DNA from: Acidobacteriota bacterium
GTDB taxonomy: Bacteria; Acidobacteriota; Terriglobia; Acidiferrales; UBA7541
Length of the DNA stretch: 41,894 nucleotides
Assembly (NCBI GenBank): GCA_003154775.1
Contig: PMES01000024.1
Location: 1 to 41,894, forward strand
Direction: 5' to 3'
Shown: positions 4,694 through 36,428 of the stretch, one piece after another
Numbering within the stretch: the stretch's first letter is position 1
How the letters are laid out: each line of letters starts with the position of its first letter
Notes under the pieces: generated by a model
What the model was told of the DNA's origin: nothing
Databases searched by the model: none
Seen by the model: the letters and a program-made list of their open reading frames with translations, nothing else
Made by a program: the position numbers and the translations under genes

Positions 4694-6457
4694 GTGAAGC
4701 ACGGCCCTCTCCTGTGCTTCGGAGTATTGTTAGCTTCCGCTATGGGTGTGAGCTGGGGCGCTCTTCCTGCAACGGCGCAAACTTCCCCGAAGCCTTCCTC
4801 TGGGACGGTGTCCGGCGTGGTGCGAGACTCCGCCGGCATTCCACAGCTTGGCGCAACCGTGGAAATGTTCTCGGAGGCGCCGGGCGTCCTTGTTGCGCGC
4901 CAGTTCCTGACAAATACGCAAGGCATTTTCAAGGGCGATAAACTCGCGCCGGGTTTCTATACGGTTCGCGTGACGCTGGCCGGATTCCTGCCCAGTCTTG
5001 AGAAGCACATCCGCATCTCCTCGAATCTGAGCACCGTGGTGCGCGTCCAGTTGGAATCCATGTTCGCGTCGGTCGAGCAACTCCGCCGGCCGCCCACCAA
5101 CGGCGCTGCGGAGCCTGACGATTGGAAATGGGTATTGCGTTCCGCTCCGGGATTGCGCCCCGTACTCCAGTGGACTGAAGACAGCGCTCTCTCCGCTTCC
5201 ACCATCGTGATGGAAACGAACACGTACGGTCCACACGGCCGCGTTGAACTCACCAACGGCGCGCGACGTCCCGGCTCCGTTTCCAGCGTTGGCGCCGCGC
5301 CAGGCACTTCTTTTGCCTACGATCAACCCATCGACCGTTACAATCGCATCGTCTTTGCAGGACAGGTCAGCTATGACCAGGACTCTCCCGCTGGCGGCCT
5401 TGCCGCGATTTGGCTGCCTACCGGCTCATCGGCTACGGGGCCGCAGAGCACCATCGTACTTCGCGAAGCAAAAATTGGGCCGGAGGGTCCGACCTTCCGG
5501 GGCGTGCGTCTCGATCAAAGTGGATCGCTGGCCTTTGGCGAGCGCTTCCTGTTGCGCGTTGGCGGCGAATATGTTCTTGTGGGCGCCGGCTCTCCCGCGT
5601 GGAGCGTGCGACCGCGCTTGAAGTTGGAATCCCGGCTTGCTGCCAACTGGTATTTGGATTTGATCTACGCCGCTCTGCCCAACAGTGGCGTCCCAAGTGA
5701 CACCCTCGCTTCCGATCTCAGCGGTGCGAGCGCTCCCGGCAATTTGACCAACGCCCTCAATCAACTCGATACCTTCCCGGCACTGCTTTGGCGCAACGGC
5801 CGGCCCGTTCTGGAGAATGGCCAGCACGAAGAAATGGCTTTGGAACACAAGATGGGAAGCCGGGGCGTCCTCCAGGTGGCTGCCTTCCACGAGGACAATC
5901 GTGACGTCGCCCTTTACGGCCGCGGCATGGACCTGCCTTCCTCGGAGTTTATCCAGGATTACTACTCGAAAGGATTTGCTTACGACGGGGGATCCTCTTC
6001 GGACTGGGGCGCGCGCCTGGCCCTGCGGCAAAAGATCACCGACGACGTGGAATTCGCGACCGTCTATGCGTTCGCGGGTGCGCTCGTCCCTGCAAGTGAG
6101 GCCGACGGAGTGCTGCGCGAGGCACTCCGCACGATGCCGCGGCACTCTCTCGCCGCCAAGGTCAGCGCCAAGGTTCCCCGGTCGGGCAGCAGCCTCAGCG
6201 CTGGTTACAAGTGGGTGAGCGGCATGAGCGTGTCTCGCGTGGACCCCTACGGTGAGAGCATCTACCAGATCAACCCCTACCTGTACATCGGTATTCGCCA
6301 GCCTCTGCCGAAGTTTGCCCTGGGGCGTTGGGAAGCCAACGCAGAATGCGACAACCTGTTTGCGCAAGGCTATGTGCCCCTGAGCACACCGGAAGGTTCG
6401 GTGCTCCTGGTGCCCGCATTTCGAAGCTTCCGAGGGGGTTTGAGCCTGCAATTCTAG
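4694..6457 (+). CDS. Carboxypeptidase-regulatory-like domain / outer-membrane beta-barrel protein
   Basis: GTG start at 4694, with GAGG nine bases upstream that also overlaps the end of the previous gene. The 587-residue product starts with a signal peptide (residues 1-28, ending PATAQ). A transthyretin-like carboxypeptidase-regulatory domain spans about 35-110 (GTVSGVVRDSAGIPQLGATV, then GFYTVRVTLAGF). From about 170 on, alternating hydrophobic and aromatic strands end in RSFRGGLSLQF; a terminal Phe is the usual BAM signal of outer-membrane barrels. It resembles TonB-dependent-receptor-like proteins without an obvious plug, and is shorter than the roughly 1000 residues common for such acidobacterial receptors. 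Its ligand is unknown. Pairing with a GWxTD protein suggests a shared envelope role. Confidence 0.75.
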   Translation: MKHGPLLCFGVLLASAMGVSWGALPATAQTSPKPSSGTVSGVVRDSAGIPQLGATVEMFSEAPGVLVARQFLTNTQGIFKGDKLAPGFYTVRVTLAGFLPSLEKHIRISSNLSTVVRVQLESMFASVEQLRRPPTNGAAEPDDWKWVLRSAPGLRPVLQWTEDSALSASTIVMETNTYGPHGRVELTNGARRPGSVSSVGAAPGTSFAYDQPIDRYNRIVFAGQVSYDQDSPAGGLAAIWLPTGSSATGPQSTIVLREAKIGPEGPTFRGVRLDQSGSLAFGERFLLRVGGEYVLVGAGSPAWSVRPRLKLESRLAANWYLDLIYAALPNSGVPSDTLASDLSGASAPGNLTNALNQLDTFPALLWRNGRPVLENGQHEEMALEHKMGSRGVLQVAAFHEDNRDVALYGRGMDLPSSEFIQDYYSKGFAYDGGSSSDWGARLALRQKITDDVEFATVYAFAGALVPASEADGVLREALRTMPRHSLAAKVSAKVPRSGSSLSAGYKWVSGMSVSRVDPYGESIYQINPYLYIGIRQPLPKFALGRWEANAECDNLFAQGYVPLSTPEGSVLLVPAFRSFRGGLSLQF

Positions 6458-29239: not shown

Positions 29240-30856
29240 TTAGTGCGAAGTCTCTTCCTTCATCGTGACCAGAGAAAGCCTTCGGTACGGCTCCACCATC
29301 ACGGATCGCACCGACGAGGCCACATGGCTCAGGTGCTGCGGCAACCAGTTATAACCATCCCCGGGTTCCTCCCCATAGATGAGAAATACCCGATGCGCGG
29401 ACGTGAATCCTGCAAAGTCTCTCACCTGTAGCGGCATGTAATCGCGAAGAAGCACCACCTGCCTGTCAAACGTGTCGGTGCCCTGGTAATGAAGTTCTTT
29501 TTCTTCGTCCATTAAATAAAAAACCTGTTGGAAAAACGCTGGCGAAGCATAGTGCGCGAGCGGGGTGTAGGCCATGCCGCTGGAAACCACCACAGGCAGA
29601 TCCCCGTAACCGCTGCTTTGCACGAATTTTTCGACAGCCGTCGCGGGGGACGCCAAGCGAAGCGAATGATTGGCGCGCCAGAAATTCAATTCACGAACTC
29701 CCACGCTGCTGAACACAAACAGAGCGAACAGCGCGACGACGGGCGGCCTCGCAAGTGACAGCGCACACCCCAAGGCAATGGCGATGCCTATCACCGCCGA
29801 TAAGGCGTAGGCGTCCCTCATGCCGCCGTGCACGATCTTGACTAAACAGAAAGTGATAATCGGCAACGCCACCAGCGCCAGCAGCAGAGTTCCCTCCGCC
29901 ACATCAGCGTCACGAACTTTTCCTTCGGAGGGATTGTTCGGCCTCAGCAACAGGTACGATCCAATCACTCCCGCAACCGCCAGAGCAAACACCGCCGCTC
30001 CAAAAGCCGAGTCAGTCAGAAAGTATGCACCATAGCTCGAGGGAAGGGAGGTGGCGGTATAAGTCGCGTACCTGTAATAGTGAGCGCCGTAGTAGGCCTT
30101 GAAGTTTGCCAGCAAAGGCCAGAAAAACACCAAGGGTATGGCCCCGCAGGCCAGGGCCAGCCAGACGCCCCAACGGAACTGCCGTGTCCGGAGGAGTACA
30201 ACGGCTTCGGCCAGGCCAAAGGGTACAATCGCGAATACCGCGTAGTAGTGCAAGGCCTGCGCCAGCACCAAGCTGATTCCCAGCATCGCTGTCCAGAATC
30301 GCGATGGCAGGCGCTGGTAGCAGACCAGCGCGAACGCGATGCACGCCATGAGCATGCTGTATGGCCGTGCTTCCACCGCATATCTCTGAAACAGGATGGT
30401 TGACAGCAGCAGGAACGTACAGAGGAAGGCAATCAATTCGCCGCTGCGCTTTTTCACGAACACGAACACGCAAACCAGGGTGCAGAGGAACGCGAGAATC
30501 GCCGGCAGCCGCAGGGCGATCTCTTTGTTGTGGAAAAGGCTGCAAGCGACGCGCTCGACCACATAAAATCCCGGCGGTTGGCCATCCATGGCCCGCGCGA
30601 GGACCGCCCATAGGGCGCGCAAGGTTGGCTGGGAACTCACGGTCAAGGTGAACAGTTCGTCCATCCAAAGCGGCTTCGTCGCCGCCGCGGCCAATCCTCG
30701 CACGATAACGTAGATAACTAGAGCAACCATCAGCCCCAGAATCAGCTTCTTGGACGACGCAGGAAGCTCATGCCCCGCTGCCGCTGCGTTGTCCGCTCTA
30801 GGCGACGCGGTGAAAAACGCTTCGGTAGTGCTTCGGGCTGACCGAAATGTCCTCAT
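29240..30856 (-). CDS. GT39-like (PMT/ArnT type) membrane glycosyltransferase
   Basis: The 538-residue protein has a short cytoplasmic start and about 11 membrane helices. The first periplasmic loop, PLWMDELFTLTVSSQPTLRA, contains the Asp-Glu pair of GT39/GT83 enzymes. The following GQPPGFYVVERV matches the HPPLYY block, and EARPYSMLMACIAFAL is the usual third motif. The C-terminal 120 residues are soluble. Such enzymes use polyprenyl-phosphate sugars as donors on the outside of the cytoplasmic membrane. It is the only leftward gene between 11 and 32 kb, so it interrupts the operon. A copy of the 48-bp element lies upstream at 31012-31059 in the orientation expected of its promoter. Confidence 0.8.
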   Translation of the reverse strand: MRTFRSARSTTEAFFTASPRADNAAAAGHELPASSKKLILGLMVALVIYVIVRGLAAAATKPLWMDELFTLTVSSQPTLRALWAVLARAMDGQPPGFYVVERVACSLFHNKEIALRLPAILAFLCTLVCVFVFVKKRSGELIAFLCTFLLLSTILFQRYAVEARPYSMLMACIAFALVCYQRLPSRFWTAMLGISLVLAQALHYYAVFAIVPFGLAEAVVLLRTRQFRWGVWLALACGAIPLVFFWPLLANFKAYYGAHYYRYATYTATSLPSSYGAYFLTDSAFGAAVFALAVAGVIGSYLLLRPNNPSEGKVRDADVAEGTLLLALVALPIITFCLVKIVHGGMRDAYALSAVIGIAIALGCALSLARPPVVALFALFVFSSVGVRELNFWRANHSLRLASPATAVEKFVQSSGYGDLPVVVSSGMAYTPLAHYASPAFFQQVFYLMDEEKELHYQGTDTFDRQVVLLRDYMPLQVRDFAGFTSAHRVFLIYGEEPGDGYNWLPQHLSHVASSVRSVMVEPYRRLSLVTMKEETSH

Positions 30857-31011
30857 CTACAATCCCCCGCGTACTCCCGCGAAAAAGTTCGATTTTTCGC
30901 TGCGGCTCCGCCGTCATGCGCCTGCCCCCGCCGGGATTGGCAAAATGCGAAATGGCATTTTTGAAGGGGCATGGGACACTCCCCCATACTGCCACTTTTG
31001 CGCGCTGCCTA

Positions 31012-31059
31012 GCCATATCCTCGATCGCAAATCACAGCGCGGTGCAGCCGTCGCATGAA
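31012..31059 (-). repeat. 48-bp dispersed element, copy A (promoter-like, leftward)
   Basis: Most diverged of three copies (others at 34832 and 35206). Read leftward, it carries GCGCTG, 17 bases, TATGGC at the positions where the other copies have TTGCTG/TTGCCG and TATGGT/TATGGC. It would start RNA near 31005, about 150 bases before the GT39-like gene. The rest of 30857-31174 shows no gene that I can support. Confidence 0.5.
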
Positions 31060-31174
31060 TGCAGAGCGAACAAGAAACCTGGCACAGATGCATTGGGGTG
31101 GTAGCCGAACTATCGGCCTCGAAGACCTTCGTGGTACGCTAGGCCAGGGTTGGAATCAAGTAGGAAGAAAAGTC

Positions 31175-31357
31175 TTGTCCAATAGTCTCCGAGTATGCCT
31201 TTACTGCGGGAATCAACATGTACGTCGAAGTAAGAAAAAAGAAGCTTTCGAGAAGGTCTTTCTGGTTCCGCTCGATATCCAGTGCTGTTGATCCTTGGAC
31301 TGTGATTCCAGATATTTCGAACACTTTCGGCGGTCACCTAGCGGAGAGGCAGCATGA
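31175..31357 (+). pseudogene. Zinc-ribbon small protein, degraded third copy
   Basis: TTG at 31175 follows AGGAAG by 7 bases and opens a 61-codon frame ending at 31357, interrupted by one TGA at 31289. The first knuckle is intact (VCLYCGNQHVRRSKKK; Cys8, Cys11). The second is damaged: codon 39 is TGA where the intact copies have Arg, codon 40 is Ser where they have Cys, then LDCDSRYF with Cys43. The Cys8-to-codon-40 distance of 32 equals Cys12-to-Cys44 in both intact copies. Its end overlaps the next gene by ATGA (31354-31357), so it was once coupled to the membrane transferase. Confidence 0.65.
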
Positions 31358-32685
31358 ATTGGAATTGGGATTCTCCTGGAATCATAAGTTCATTACCTAA
31401 AATAATCGTCTCAGTATTTGCCCTCAGTATTGTTTCAGCACTTCTGTTCATATTTCTCGTGGACCGACCGGTCTACGACGACATATTTAACATTTTTGAT
31501 ATTAAGGCTTATGCCCACAGCGGAGTCACTGTTTCTACAGTCAGAGCTCAAAGAAACCCACCTGGGCCTGGGAGCTTCATTTGGATGGCGGCTGGTGTTC
31601 GCCTGTTGGGCGGCGGAGAACTGCGTGACGCGAGACTCTCAGTTCTATTTGCCTGGGTTTTGCTTGTCTCGGGCATACTTGTGGCTGCTCCCTACAGCAG
31701 ATTTTCTCAACTCTGGTACGGCGCTCTTTTAGCCGCCTTAGTTTTTCCATATTCACTTACCGCAACTGCGACGTTGCTCACTGAAGGGCCCGCGTTGCTC
31801 TTTGCCATGTTGGGAACTCTTGTTTGGACGGAAGCAGTGTCGCAGCCAAAAGTCACTTCGACAGTTTTCGCTCTGGCTATTTTGGGAGGTTTAGGGATCG
31901 GGGCGGCGATAATCAGCCGTCAATACTACGTAGCGTTGCTGCCAGCGGCTGCTGTGCTTGCACTCTACCTATTAAGACAGCGAACCTCGGAAAGTAGAAC
32001 GCTCTGGTTGGCTAGTATGACCCTTTCGCTGACAGTTGCTGTGATTCCCCTGCTTCTTTTGGTGGCTGTTTGGGGAAACCTATCAAGTCCTGGGATCGCC
32101 ACAGGCACGTCGTATAAAAATTACCATGCCGGCGTGGGTTTGAATTTTCTCCGGCCACTGGCCGCAGCTTTCCGTACTGGGTTTTATCTCATTCCTTTGA
32201 CCTTTCCCGTCATGAAGTGTGTGCGGTCCGGGCGGCGGTGGCGGGTGCTCCTGGTGGCAGCGATTATTGGGACCGTGGCGGTCCCATTCAGAACAGATCT
32301 AGTGGGTATTGGAGTTCTCCACTCACTTCTCAGATTTGCATTTCGGCTACCTGCGGCCGGAATCTTGGCCTTTGGGTCTATCGCCATACTGGTTGCCTAC
32401 AACGCAATTATGTTGGGCTTGCTATTATGGGAGAAAAGGCAAGACGTGCTAGGGTGTCCCCCTGTAATCTTCGCGCTTCTCACAGTTCTGTTTTTTGTCG
32501 GGGAACAGTTCGGAGTCGGCGGAAACATTCCCTTTTACGATAGATACATTCTTCAACTTGCTCCCTTTCTGGGTTTGATCGCATTCTTTCTCATTCCCAA
32601 AGTGTCGTTGCCCCGAGCAGCGGCGTTGATGGGAATGTATTTACTGAGTCAAGAAATGTTGTGGAGGTTTTTGTTCATAAAATAG
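31354..32685 (+). CDS. Multi-pass membrane protein, GT-C glycosyltransferase-like
   Basis: The ATG at 31354 has GAGAGG eight bases before it; 443 residues with about 11 hydrophobic helices. After helix 1 the loop RPVYDDIFNIFDIKAYAHSG has an Asp pair, and RNPPGPGSFIWMAAG takes the place of the HPP block, so a GT-C transferase is likely. No close family is recognised. It lacks the soluble C-terminal domain of the other GT-C-like proteins here. Codons ending in A or T are much more common than in genes on either side, as expected for recent transfer. Degraded zinc-ribbon codons overlap its start. Confidence 0.65.
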   Translation: MNWNWDSPGIISSLPKIIVSVFALSIVSALLFIFLVDRPVYDDIFNIFDIKAYAHSGVTVSTVRAQRNPPGPGSFIWMAAGVRLLGGGELRDARLSVLFAWVLLVSGILVAAPYSRFSQLWYGALLAALVFPYSLTATATLLTEGPALLFAMLGTLVWTEAVSQPKVTSTVFALAILGGLGIGAAIISRQYYVALLPAAAVLALYLLRQRTSESRTLWLASMTLSLTVAVIPLLLLVAVWGNLSSPGIATGTSYKNYHAGVGLNFLRPLAAAFRTGFYLIPLTFPVMKCVRSGRRWRVLLVAAIIGTVAVPFRTDLVGIGVLHSLLRFAFRLPAAGILAFGSIAILVAYNAIMLGLLLWEKRQDVLGCPPVIFALLTVLFFVGEQFGVGGNIPFYDRYILQLAPFLGLIAFFLIPKVSLPRAAALMGMYLLSQEMLWRFLFIK

Positions 32686-32758
32686 ATGCGCCTGGCCACT
32701 CACCTTTGGAATAGTCATCCGATGGCCGTACTTGCGGGGTGAGCGTAGATGACACAAT

Positions 32759-32778
32759 CTGGAGCACTACTTCTCCAG
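32759..32778. terminator. Short hairpin between converging genes
   Basis: CTGGAG (32759-32764), 8-base loop, CTCCAG (32773-32778). It lies between the rightward membrane gene and the leftward zinc-ribbon gene. There is no T-run, so a terminator role is only suggested by position. Confidence 0.25.
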
Positions 32779-32797
32779 CGATGCGCCCGGAGCTTTC

Positions 32798-32977
32798 CTA
32801 GGTTTTCGATCCGGAACGGGCCAGGAACAACTGGTCACACGCGCTGCAGCGAAACGGCCGCACACGGAAAAGAAAGCACACCGCTTTTATGTAGAATCCT
32901 CGCCTTCTCTCCCGGCGCACTTCCTTGCTGCCACATTTTGGACAAACTCTCTTGCGGGCGATCGACGGCACTGGCAT
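32798..32977 (-). CDS. 59-residue zinc-ribbon protein, copy 1
   Basis: The ATG at 32977 follows the methyltransferase stop by one base. The protein starts MPVPSIARKRVCPKCGSK, has a Arg-rich middle (RRERRRG), a hydrophobic stretch (AVCFLFRVR) and RPFRCSACDQLF. Cys12, Cys15, Cys44 and Cys47 form two CxxC knuckles expected to bind one zinc. It is about 66% identical to copy 2 at 34890-35069 (39 of 59 positions by eye). High Arg content suggests nucleic-acid or membrane-surface binding. No named family; function unknown. It has probably been missed by gene callers because of its size. Confidence 0.75.
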   Translation of the reverse strand: MPVPSIARKRVCPKCGSKEVRRERRRGFYIKAVCFLFRVRPFRCSACDQLFLARSGSKT

Positions 32978-32978
32978 T

Positions 32979-33779
32979 TCAACTCTTCGCGATTTGCAAA
33001 ACGGCCATCAAAGACGTGCCAAGCAATTTCTGCGGAATCGCTTCGCATTTGGCCAGCAAGCCCAGCGCCTTATTCATCCCCGGCGTGCGCGTATCGAGCC
33101 CAGGTGTGATGATCTTGCCCTGATCGTGGGTCCCCAACAGCCACAGTTTACGAAGCATCAGAGTCGGTAGGAGCGGCAGCCCCCAATACGTCCACCCTTC
33201 TACCTTGAACTGACTCCGCCCCGCACTCTCGCGCAACATCTGGATCGAGTAGCGCCGCACGTGGCCGACTGCCACATCGTAAGACGAATAAGCCCACTGC
33301 CCGGCTGGGACGTTGATCACCAGCTTTCCCCCCGGCGCGAGGTAAAACGCTAGGGCGCGCAAGAAGCGGTCCTCCTCAGTAATGTGTTCCAGAACGTCGA
33401 AAAGAAAAATCACATCAAACTGCTCTTTCAGTTGCGCGTCCATCTGAAAAATGTCATAGCAACAGACACGGCTGCGCTGGCTCAGATTCTGTTTCAACGC
33501 GTACTCATTCAAATCGAAGCCGGTTACTTCATGCCCATAGGTATCCTCGATTTGTCTTTGGAGCAGGCCGTGGCCGCATCCAATCTCCGCCATGTGTTGC
33601 GCACCACGAAGCTCTCCCCCTGCCAATCGTTGCAGCACTGCAAACCGCCGCCGGACCCAGAAATGATCGATCGAGGCTATCTTGAACCACCGGTCTCCCA
33701 TGCTAACTTCGGCTGGCCGCGATAAATACTCGATCTTCCGCTCCGCTGCCGTTTCTGTCGTTGCGTTTGTCGCGCTCAT
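32979..33779 (-). CDS. Class I SAM-dependent methyltransferase
   Basis: The 266-residue enzyme has motif I AEIGCGHGLLQRQI followed by VTGFDLNEYAL, then DVIFLFDVLEHITEEDRFL (motif II with the downstream acidic/His part) and APGGKLVINVPAG. This is the Methyltransf_11/23 pattern common in glycan loci. The first 60 residues (DRWFKIASIDHFWVRRRF) match sugar-modifying members that act on lipid-linked glycans. It is 73 bases downstream of the GT2 gene and 1 base upstream of zinc-ribbon copy 1, so all three are probably one message. Confidence 0.85.
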   Translation of the reverse strand: MSATNATTETAAERKIEYLSRPAEVSMGDRWFKIASIDHFWVRRRFAVLQRLAGGELRGAQHMAEIGCGHGLLQRQIEDTYGHEVTGFDLNEYALKQNLSQRSRVCCYDIFQMDAQLKEQFDVIFLFDVLEHITEEDRFLRALAFYLAPGGKLVINVPAGQWAYSSYDVAVGHVRRYSIQMLRESAGRSQFKVEGWTYWGLPLLPTLMLRKLWLLGTHDQGKIITPGLDTRTPGMNKALGLLAKCEAIPQKLLGTSLMAVLQIAKS

Positions 33780-33852
33780 TGCCCTACGTCTTGCCTCTGC
33801 GTTCGCAACTTCATACTTTGCCTCGCACAGACGCGCTCTCGTGTCCGTTCAC

Positions 33853-34797
33853 TCAATCCCTCTTTATACCAACGGTGCGCCCCACAATGTATTGAGGCCG
33901 CGCTTTGGTCTCCTCGTAAATCCGGCCGACATACTCTCCAATTACGCCTAAGAAGAACAGCAGGACGCCCGAAAAAAAGGTTAGTGCGACGATCAAAGCG
34001 GTGAACCCCTGCGGTGACTTTTGTAGGAAAATCTTGATGTAGATCGAGTAGATCACATACAAACTGGAAAGAAAGATCACAAACGCGCCGAACAGCGCCG
34101 CCGCGCGGATTGGCACGATGGAAAACGCAAAGATCCCGTCGAACGCAAGTTTCACCAGCCGCATCACACTGTACTTGCTCTTCCCCGAATGCCGCTCGGC
34201 GCGTTCCACCTCAATCCCCACCTGACGAAACCCCACCCAGCTCCGCATCCCCCTCAAGTAGCGGTGATGCTCCGGCATCTTCCTCACTTCTTCAACGACC
34301 CGCCGCGACATCAACCCGAAATCCCCCGAGTCCAGCGGCAAGCGGATATCCGAAAGCCTCGCCATCATCCGGTAAAACACAAAATAGCAGATGCGCAGCG
34401 CCAGCGGCTCCTTCCGCCTCACCCTCTGCGCGTACACAACGTCGTATCCCTGCTGAAATTTCTCCACAAATTGCGGGATTACTTCCGGAACATCTTGTAG
34501 GTCTCCGTCCATCACAACTGCCGCATCGCCGGTCACATGATCCAAGCCCGCCGTGATCGCCGCCTGATGCCCGAAATTCCGCGAAAGCGATACGACCACA
34601 ATGCGCGTATCCTCGTTCGCCGCCTTCGCCAGCATCTCGAAGGTCCGGTCGGTGCTTCCGTCGTCCACGAACACGATCTCGTGCGGTCCTCCCGGCACGC
34701 GGTCCAGAACCGCGCGCAACCGCTGCAGAAGTTCCGGCAGGACGCTTTCTTCATTGTGGATGGGAATCGCTACGGAGAGGCAAAATCCAGTGGACAT
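33853..34797 (-). CDS. GT2 glycosyltransferase, polyprenyl-phosphate sugar synthase type (DPMS/GtrB/ArnC-like)
   Basis: The 314-residue protein has a GT-A catalytic domain (residues 1-225) with FVDDGSTDRTFEML, VVMDGDLQDVPEVI (metal-binding DXD region) and RGMRSWVGFRQVGI. Two membrane helices follow at about 230-300 (IRAAALFGAFVIFLSSLYVIY and ALTFFSGVLLFFLGVIGEYVG), ending in the family tail GRIYEETKARPQYIV. Such enzymes load a sugar onto undecaprenyl phosphate on the cytoplasmic face. The product is the donor needed by the GT-C-like proteins in this locus. The start has AGGATAAAGGG upstream, and copy B of the 48-bp element places a promoter 28 bases before the ATG. Confidence 0.9.
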   Translation of the reverse strand: MSTGFCLSVAIPIHNEESVLPELLQRLRAVLDRVPGGPHEIVFVDDGSTDRTFEMLAKAANEDTRIVVVSLSRNFGHQAAITAGLDHVTGDAAVVMDGDLQDVPEVIPQFVEKFQQGYDVVYAQRVRRKEPLALRICYFVFYRMMARLSDIRLPLDSGDFGLMSRRVVEEVRKMPEHHRYLRGMRSWVGFRQVGIEVERAERHSGKSKYSVMRLVKLAFDGIFAFSIVPIRAAALFGAFVIFLSSLYVIYSIYIKIFLQKSPQGFTALIVALTFFSGVLLFFLGVIGEYVGRIYEETKARPQYIVGRTVGIKRD

Positions 34798-34831
34798 GCA
34801 GACCCTTTATCCTCTTAGGCGGAGTCCCTTC

Positions 34832-34880
34832 ACCATACCCTCAATCGCAAATCCCAGCAAGGAGCAGCCGCTCGATTCAA
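34832..34880 (-). promoter_or_regulatory. 48-bp dispersed element, copy B, likely promoter of the GT2-methyltransferase-zinc-ribbon unit
   Basis: Read leftward: conserved TCGAGCGGCTGCTCC, then TTGCTG, 17 bases, TATGGT. Transcription would start near 34825, 28 bases before the GT2 ATG. It is nearly identical to copy C (35206-35255) and related to copy A (31012-31059). Confidence 0.55.
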
Positions 34881-34889
34881 GCAGCTTTC

Positions 34890-35069
34890 TCAGGATTTCG
34901 ATCTGCAAGGGGCCAGGAACAAATGGTCACACGCGCTGCACCGAAACGGCCGCAAGCCGAGGATCAGGCACACCACCCTTACGTAGAGTCCTCTCCTCCT
35001 CGCACGCTGCACTCCTTTGCTTCCGCAGGTTGGACAAACTCGCTTGCGGGCAATCGGCGGCAGCGGCAT
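34890..35069 (-). CDS. 59-residue zinc-ribbon protein, copy 2
   Basis: The ATG at 35069 has AAGGA six bases before it. The protein starts MPLPPIARKRVCPTCGSK, has Arg-rich QRARRRG, then VVCLILGLRPFRCSACDHLF; Cys12/Cys15 and Cys44/Cys47 are the two knuckles, and an additional Cys34 is shared with copy 1. The stop is 93 bases before the GT2 gene, and copy B of the 48-bp element lies between. The 288 bases upstream (35070-35357) hold copy C and a short open frame ending just before the ATG (YWMLTNLKQYRKDAYGL), which might be the end of a lost gene. Function unknown. Confidence 0.75.
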   Translation of the reverse strand: MPLPPIARKRVCPTCGSKGVQRARRRGLYVRVVCLILGLRPFRCSACDHLFLAPCRSKS

Positions 35070-35205
35070 CTCAATCCTTCCGAGGGCTCAATCCGTATGC
35101 ATCCTTACGGTACTGTTTAAGGTTTGTGAGCATCCAGTATGCAACAGTTTTTTCAAACGCCAAAGGAGCGACGACGCGACCATGCCCGCCTGATTGTGTT
35201 GCTAC

Positions 35206-35255
35206 GCCATACCCTCAATCGCGAATCACGGCAAGGAGCAGCCGCTCGATTGCAA
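35206..35255 (-). repeat. 48-bp dispersed element, copy C (promoter-like, leftward)
   Basis: Read leftward: TCGAGCGGCTGCTCC, TTGCCG, 17 bases, TATGGC. It would start RNA near 35199, about 130 bases before zinc-ribbon copy 2. It differs from copy B at only a few positions. Confidence 0.55.
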
Positions 35256-35357
35256 CCCCCAGCCGTGTACAGTAAGATTTCCACGTTGCGATTACACTCG
35301 ATTGTGCGCATCCCCGCCCTTGGATTGCCCCGAAAGGTCAGGTTTGGCTGAGTATTT

Positions 35358-36428
35358 ATGGCAAGGCCCATCGTCAGCGTTTTAATCGACACCTACAACC
35401 ACGAGCGCTTCATTGAGCAGGCCATTCTCAGCGTTCTGGAACAGGATTTTCCCGGTTCTGACCGCGAAATCCTCGTGGTGGACGACGGCTCGCAGGATAG
35501 TACCCCGCAGATCGTCGCCAAATTTGCCCCTCAGGTCCGCCTGATCCGCAAAGCCAACGGAGGTCAGGCCTCCGCCTTCAATGCAGGCATTCCGGAATGC
35601 CAGGGCGAGATCGTAGCGTTCCTCGATGGCGACGACTGGTGGGCCCCCGGCAAGCTGAAACTTGTGGTCGCGGCGTTCTCGCAGAATTCGGACGTTGGAC
35701 TAATCGGCCATAGCATCACCGAAGTCCTCGCCGATGGCGCATGCCGCAGCGAGTTGGTCCGGGAATTCCCCCGCTTTCGCATTAACTCCGTCGCTGGCGC
35801 GCGCATTTTTCGCCGCCGCAAGAGTTTTCTCGGCACCAGCCGCATGGCCTTCCGCGCAGAGCTTCTCCGTCGCATCGGCCCGGTGCCCGAAGCGCTCACA
35901 ATCCAAGCCGACGAGTTCCTTTTCACATTGGGAGCCCTATTTTCCGAAGTGCTGCTCCTCCGCGAGCCCCTCACCTTCTATCGCCTGCACGGACAGAATC
36001 TCTTTCAGGTGAGCGATGGCAGCCACGCCGCTCTCCGCCGCAAACACGACGTACTGATTTCTCTTGCGAAGGCGCTCCATCGGCGCTTTGCGGAAGAACG
36101 CGTCCCTGAGGACATAAGCAAGGCGATCATTGAAAGCGTTCAGACGGAAGCGGACGCGCTTCATTTGTACCTCGGCGGAGGCACGCGTCTCGACATCATT
36201 CGCACCGAACTCCGAACATATCGGATCGAGGAGGAACATGCCTCGTCGTTTCGCTGGATCCTCAAATTCCTCAGTCTTCTCCCCGCTCTTTTACTTTCTC
36301 CTAGACGATATACGGAATGGAAACGGGGACTGGCCTCCAATTCTCTATATCGGAAAACACGCCAAAAGCTGGTTCCGCATCTCCGCCCCACCCACGTTGA
36401 CCGCACCGGCGACTGGAGCCAGCGATGA
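35358..36428 (+). CDS. GT2 family glycosyltransferase
   Basis: The 356-residue protein has the GT-A domain in the first 210 residues: VSVLIDTYNHERFIEQAILS, ILVVDDGSQDSTPQI, then D90-GDDWW with the metal-binding DXD, and the catalytic-base region with PVPEALTIQADEFLF. The C-terminal helical part (about 220-350) has no certain membrane segment apart from a hydrophobic KFLSLLPALLLS. It transfers a sugar from a nucleotide donor in the cytoplasm. It is the first gene of the rightward right-hand block, and its stop overlaps the next ATG (ATGA, 36425-36428). Confidence 0.9.
   Translation: MARPIVSVLIDTYNHERFIEQAILSVLEQDFPGSDREILVVDDGSQDSTPQIVAKFAPQVRLIRKANGGQASAFNAGIPECQGEIVAFLDGDDWWAPGKLKLVVAAFSQNSDVGLIGHSITEVLADGACRSELVREFPRFRINSVAGARIFRRRKSFLGTSRMAFRAELLRRIGPVPEALTIQADEFLFTLGALFSEVLLLREPLTFYRLHGQNLFQVSDGSHAALRRKHDVLISLAKALHRRFAEERVPEDISKAIIESVQTEADALHLYLGGGTRLDIIRTELRTYRIEEEHASSFRWILKFLSLLPALLLSPRRYTEWKRGLASNSLYRKTRQKLVPHLRPTHVDRTGDWSQR

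Follow-up and report, generated by a model that had tools for sequence, protein, structure and literature searches.

Two locally duplicated genes for small zinc-ribbon proteins from a multi-copy family of Acidobacteriota

Among described systems, those closest to the small proteins considered here are the N-terminal zinc ribbon of NrdR, a DNA-binding repressor of which the ATP-cone domain is a defining part, the FmdB-type zinc ribbon (NCBIfam TIGR02605; Pfam PF09723), the zinc ribbon of IS1595 transposases (PF12760; IS1/InsA type) and the domain DUF7340 (PF24029). We compared these with two intact genes of 59 amino acids, R1 (positions 32798–32977) and R2 (34890–35069), both on the reverse strand of a window of 41,894 nucleotides, which is one contig (G000:C71) of the 4.63-Mb assembly of a soil Acidobacteriota bacterium (GCA_003154775.1; 98.2% complete, 150 contigs). 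In both proteins the N-terminal part carries CPxCGS and the C-terminal part RPFRCSACD, and the open frames containing their open reading frames (ORFs) measure 69 and 65 codons. R1 and R2 belong to none of the four systems, as scores fall below the cut-offs or domains are missing. The NrdR ribbon is the top fold match by Z (3.5, root-mean-square deviation 2.9 over 41 residues), a weak one, but identity over these 41 residues is 17–20%, and R1 and R2 end with the ribbon, leaving no room for an ATP-cone. FmdB is likewise a small CxxC...CxxC protein and provides the best NCBIfam match (2e-4, for R1), but the scores of 21.3 and 17.6 bits lie under the cut-off of 31.3 and the best stretch consists of 14 residues around one knuckle. 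The IS1595 ribbon has the same CPxCGS...RCxxC...F layout over residues 9–48, but scores 17.2 and 15.7 bits compared to a gathering score of 25.4, and the 59 residues of R1 and R2 include no transposase domain. DUF7340 matches residues 9–50 of R2 at 5e-5, but with 23.4 bits (14.9 for R1) against a gathering score of 27. Both proteins in fact lie below every Pfam and NCBIfam cut-off, PADLOC gave no model for either at E <= 0.1, PHROGs gave weak matches to unknowns only, and a search of the sequences of solved structures returned generic zinc-finger and ribosomal ribbon matches. The portions of the literature on acidobacterial zinc ribbons and small proteins that were accessible held no description of the ribbon family.

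We read R1 and R2 as private, locally duplicated paralogues of a mostly stand-alone ribbon family, for which nucleic-acid binding is the likeliest activity and which is not in partnership with glycosyltransferases, and we give this reading a probability of about 0.5. The two genes lie in a duplication (D1) of 198 nucleotides with 79% DNA identity, at 32791–32988 and 34883–35080, the R1 copy reaching from 11 nucleotides before the start codon to 7 past the stop; no further common DNA was found in the flanks outside these 198 nucleotides. A 441-bp block containing R2 is present in one of 61 genomes, its own, and absent from the 60 relatives, and matches to P0002 outside its own genome are 34–51% identical (89 family genomes, E <= 1e-7). 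R1 and R2 are genome-private paralogues that come from a true, local duplication. The proteins are 66% identical and both keep C12, C15, C44 and C47 together with the RPFRC segment; by eye, a ribosome-binding-like sequence (GGAAGGA) is seen ahead of the ATG of R2. Substitutions between the two number 15 over 44.2 synonymous sites and 21 over 132.8 non-synonymous sites, giving proportions pS of 0.34 and pN of 0.16 and a ratio of non-synonymous to synonymous change (dN/dS) of about 0.39. As pS exceeds pN (Fisher p=0.016), R1 and R2 both look selected as coding genes.

The first-pass annotation had counted three copies within 4 kb, all with two CxxC knuckles, the third being R3 (31175–31357, forward strand). 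It is a member of the family by profile match (E=2.6e-4, with one TGA within), keeping knuckle 1 (CLYC) intact, but in knuckle 2 Ser replaces the first cysteine, the third of the four, and an in-frame TGA stands in place of the conserved Arg preceding it. The DNA of R3 has no similarity to R1 or R2 (scores of 20 and 17, with shuffled maxima of 21 and 24), and it is thus not a copy of them but a dead relative, leaving two intact, duplicated copies instead of three. Its nearest relative among the fetched loci (L055, 44% amino acid identity) belongs to a different sub-group. Given a dead ribbon nearby and differences at 34% of residues, one might consider R1 and R2 to be decaying junk, heading for loss like R3, but the purifying signal and the intact cysteines and RPFRC of both genes make this extremely improbable.

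The family itself is widespread in Acidobacteriota, multi-copy and unnamed. Of 297 genomes taken from across the phylum, the own one counted, 63 or more have matches to a profile of 32 rows that contains members from that genome (A1), a lower bound since no more than 22 candidates were scored in each genome; R1 alone as a query finds matches in 54 of 101 genomes, again counting its own. The family profile recovers R1 and R2 at 7e-20 and 7e-19, values to be read in the knowledge that the profile itself contains both. Seven A1 matches occur in the own genome, at six places on several contigs. All four cysteines are present in 84 of the 86 rows of a larger alignment (A6), two of them invariant, with P41 in 79 rows and R43 in 70, and R1 and R2 carry all of C12, C15, C44, C47, P41 and R43. 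The earlier proposal of a small zinc-ribbon family is thus borne out in other genomes, with its cysteines conserved. Most members stand alone: 80 of 93 ORFs have at most 40 residues after the ribbon and 13 have more than 40, in a set where long ORFs are over-represented, since some 20 of the loci were chosen for long frames, and in which a few genes are counted twice. Two ribbons within a single ORF are found in 11 of the 93. At one locus (L048; G054:C143) two ribbon genes lie tail to tail with 55 nucleotides between them (ORFs 5465–5656 on the forward and 5712–5900 on the reverse strand).

The proposed activity is drawn from the form of the proteins. The two CxxC knuckles would together hold one zinc, judging from the conserved cysteines, and the Arg-rich stretch between them, together with the C-terminal RPFRC..C...F strand, makes for a strongly basic protein (calculated isoelectric point, pI, of 11.2). 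Two predicted models agree on a strand, a helix and two further strands (mean pLDDT 66 and 68). Among solved folds the closest are zinc ribbons from NrdR, a Dof DNA-binding domain and subunits of RNA polymerase, each of them a weak match (Z up to 3.5). From the pI and this fold class, binding to nucleic acid appears most likely; the target would most plausibly be DNA and the protein a small transcription-type factor, any regulatory role of R1 and R2 being putative.

Several observations weigh against this reading. The structural matches are weak, with no Foldseek E below 0.6 and no Z above 3.5, and the confidence of the models is middling. A paralogue in the own genome (L043; G000:C68:9953-10108) has Tyr at the fourth cysteine, which makes it one of the exceptions among the 86 aligned rows, and zinc binding need thus not extend to all copies. 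The ribbon of L051, one of the nearer relatives, lies between an FkbM methyltransferase and a family 2 glycosyltransferase (GT2), and that of L074 adjoins a GT87 gene. Lastly, there are single examples of ribbons fused to a PilZ domain (L206), to a JAB domain with a membrane tail (L203) and to a PDZ domain with a membrane segment (L204), the membrane segments being assigned by eye, and these three modules are not known for nucleic acid, so that the ribbon may be a protein–protein adaptor. A further candidate fusion (L026), PilZ-like by eye, was set aside as it lacks Pfam support. For R1 and R2 themselves we consider an adaptor role, on a partner encoded elsewhere and on the model of these fusions, to be doubtful: the long forms are a minority even in a set enriched for them, and R1 and R2 are both stand-alone and very basic.

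The association with glycan genes seen in the window is a feature that can be compared across the family. The first-pass annotation had read the repeated position of the ribbons beside transferase genes as a possible functional link, and had also proposed them as small subunits of membrane transferases. We examined the neighbours of 60 family loci outside the window (L043–L102) and of 40 control loci (L103–L142), the latter mostly on the same contigs, at distances from a family match that range from some 40 kb to over 1 Mb, with a few on another contig or genome of the sample; one control (L131) is all N, leaving 39 readable. A glycosyltransferase or FkbM gene is found within one gene of the ribbon at two of the 60 family loci compared to none of the 40 controls (39 readable; p=0.52). 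Counted by gene, the numbers are 3 of 119 family neighbours against 0 of 78 control neighbours within one gene, and 5 of 340 against 1 of 230 within three, and all glycan comparisons are non-significant (p 0.28–0.52). The home-made search behind these counts is insensitive, as several of its seeds hit nothing but themselves and the control proteins of the PMT_2 and Wzy_C types, which Pfam finds, escaped it. Pfam tallies, which cover the 25 commonest families at E <= 1e-5 for proteins cut to 400 amino acids, agree with the counts: for the 119 family neighbours the 25 listed include no glycosyltransferase family, and for 118 control proteins (of the 156 control genes listed) PMT_2 and Wzy_C appear twice each. 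The same holds for the nearest sub-group (13 loci, 71 neighbours), with no glycosyltransferase family among the 25 listed; L051 was left out of this set because its FkbM/GT2 setting was already established. Ten close same-strand neighbours of ribbons, scanned one by one, are a mixture that includes an extracytoplasmic function (ECF) sigma factor, an IF-2B-type enzyme, a glutamate-type dehydrogenase, a molybdenum-cofactor enzyme, the GT87 of L074, an acyltransferase (L076) and others.

Since most sampled family members adjoin unrelated genes, the ribbons are not dedicated glycosyltransferase partners: such a partnership is not supported, and we reject glycan association as a general feature of the family following the comparison with control loci. 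Listing neighbours across genomes thus gave no significant excess of glycan genes, and nothing favours a role as a transferase subunit beyond the position of the ribbons here, in L051 and in L074. It is rather unlikely that R1 and R2 nonetheless regulate or assist the adjacent glycosyltransferases, for instance as transcription factors acting locally on the glycan cluster. Three family members within 4 kb of one glycan locus, and the settings of L051 and L074, are consistent with this idea, but it is opposed by the census of loci, by the Pfam tallies, including that of the nearest sub-group, and by the neighbouring genes themselves, which occur without a detected ribbon in other genomes.

These neighbouring genes lie in a glycan locus, probably one for exopolysaccharide. 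A GT2 gene (33853–34797, reverse strand) lies next to R2 and has orthologues of 64–81% identity in 15 other family genomes, the search returning in addition one partial match and three matches of 44–47% identity. It is followed by an S-adenosylmethionine (SAM) methyltransferase gene (32979–33779, reverse strand), and then by R1, which begins 1 nucleotide past the methyltransferase stop. On the far side of R1 is a hydrophobic gene (31354–32685, forward strand), GT-C-like according to the first-pass annotation but with no Pfam match, which R3 overlaps by 4 nucleotides; the spacings given previously are thus confirmed at these two junctions, with the R2–GT2 gap being 92 nucleotides rather than 93. 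A second GT2 gene (35358–36428, forward strand) and a PMT_2-type membrane transferase gene (29240–30856, reverse strand) lie to either side. GC content is 0.47 for R3, 0.50 for the hydrophobic gene it overlaps and 0.58 for the window, and this common low value suggests that R3 and the hydrophobic gene arrived together.

No ribbon was detected in the loci of the 15 relatives with a GT2 orthologue (4.8–14 kb each), and a laxer scan gave three weak matches only (E of 0.13, 1.2 and 1.3); the original scan likewise failed to pick up the dead R3 of the window, and thus might overlook broken ribbons in the relatives. The methyltransferase is kept together with the GT2 in five of the 15 loci (L179, L181, L185, L186 and L188). 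In L181 the order is GT2, methyltransferase and a homologue of the hydrophobic gene, in one direction throughout, whereas in the window this last gene is reversed and lies between R3 and R1, the two ribbon genes being convergent. With the pair lacking a detected ribbon in relatives and the hydrophobic gene reversed, R1 and R2 would most simply be additions to a conserved GT2–methyltransferase pair in a rearranged stretch, and the copies would lie in a glycan locus where duplication, decay and rearrangement are all visible. Promoters could not be placed, as a scan of 30700–35500 for sigma-70-like promoters did no better than shuffles (0 found, compared to 2.6 in shuffled sequence). Elsewhere, near the start of the window, a 48-bp inverted repeat of 87.5% identity is found at 873–920 and 1483–1530, its arms about 560 bp apart.

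A mobile cassette had been the other suggestion for the repeated ribbons. Across the family, ribbon loci are of two kinds: seven close pairs (57–98% identical) keep 2–6 common neighbours, and many other pairs, 50–98% identical, are without any. One genome (G336) offers a parallel to the window, as two of its ribbon genes (L076 and L077), about 450 kb apart, share 220–222 bp at 88% identity, from about 70 nucleotides before the ATG to about the stop codon, with no match in the rest of the two 12-kb loci. This unit resembles that of R1 and R2, the two making two cases in all. The L076 ribbon lies beside the acyltransferase gene noted above, between two copies of another gene, so that a larger rearrangement can explain the site. 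This two-copy gene has one match in a further genome (G376), on a contig for which no family match is listed, and no ribbon was found in the stretch fetched from it. We saw no recombinase or terminal repeat in the two gene-sized duplications, identified no target duplications for the ribbon units, and found no transposase family among the 25 commonest listed for the 119 family neighbours. A known mobile element was rejected, as the ribbons have no phage or plasmid match. One viral contig did give a match, to a protein (L249, 4401–5168), exonuclease-like by eye, that ends in a CPKCGS...CNSC zinc ribbon; this ribbon lies outside the family, and a second viral scan found none.

A mobile cassette thus survives only in a weak form, by way of the G336 duplication, namely as a gene-sized unit of leader and ORF (about 200–220 bp) that disperses by copying through an unknown or borrowed mechanism and has little selected function. 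The G336 pair, without common neighbours among those compared, fits such a unit, as do the 198 nucleotides of R1 and R2, outside which no further common DNA was found, and the many ribbons of 50–70% identity that have no common neighbours. But it would be drawn from two cases only, other close pairs keep their neighbours, the marks of transposition listed above were not found, the L076 site has its alternative explanation, and a dN/dS of 0.39 argues for function; we consider it unlikely.

The locus also contains a private direct repeat, D2, of 38–45 bp with the core CCATAYCCTCRATCGCRAATC, which is present at three places, and no more, in the 4.63-Mb assembly at <=2 mismatches, all on one strand. 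D2a (34833–34877, forward strand) lies in the R2–GT2 gap, 35 bp upstream of the GT2 start; D2b (35207–35251, forward) lies between R2 and the second GT2, which are divergent, so that D2a and D2b flank R2; and D2c (31013–31050, forward) lies in the gap between the PMT_2-type gene and the divergent R3 and hydrophobic genes. Among 100 relatives there was no match with fewer than 2 mismatches, only matches with 2–3, and folding of D2 as a hairpin was no better than for shuffles (z 0.19). Four gaps of more than 1 nucleotide lie upstream of a gene in 30857–35357, and D2 occurs in three of these, which speaks for regulation of the adjacent transferases by the ribbons; its absence from the fourth, the 73-bp gap ahead of the methyltransferase, speaks against it. 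D2 could serve as an operator, be what remains of an upstream region that was duplicated, or act as a recombination site. Taking the first of these to its limit, R1 and R2 could be DNA-binding ribbons with D2 as their operator, and the ribbon gene with its short leader could be a unit of about 200 bp, complete in itself, which spreads to new loci and rewires them. Such a minimal, travelling regulator–operator module, which would put glycan genes under private control, is in our judgement very unlikely.

The preferred reading, of private paralogues from a mostly stand-alone and probably nucleic-acid-binding family, thus separates what holds at this locus from what holds generally, in that the apparent glycan link found here is no general feature of the ribbon family. 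If the D2 repeats were operators, the locus would be a simple example in which a very small regulator travels into variable surface-polymer loci together with the sites it binds. Independently of this, the comparison documents a widespread, multi-copy family of small proteins in Acidobacteriota, of which both members described here lie below the Pfam and NCBIfam cut-offs.

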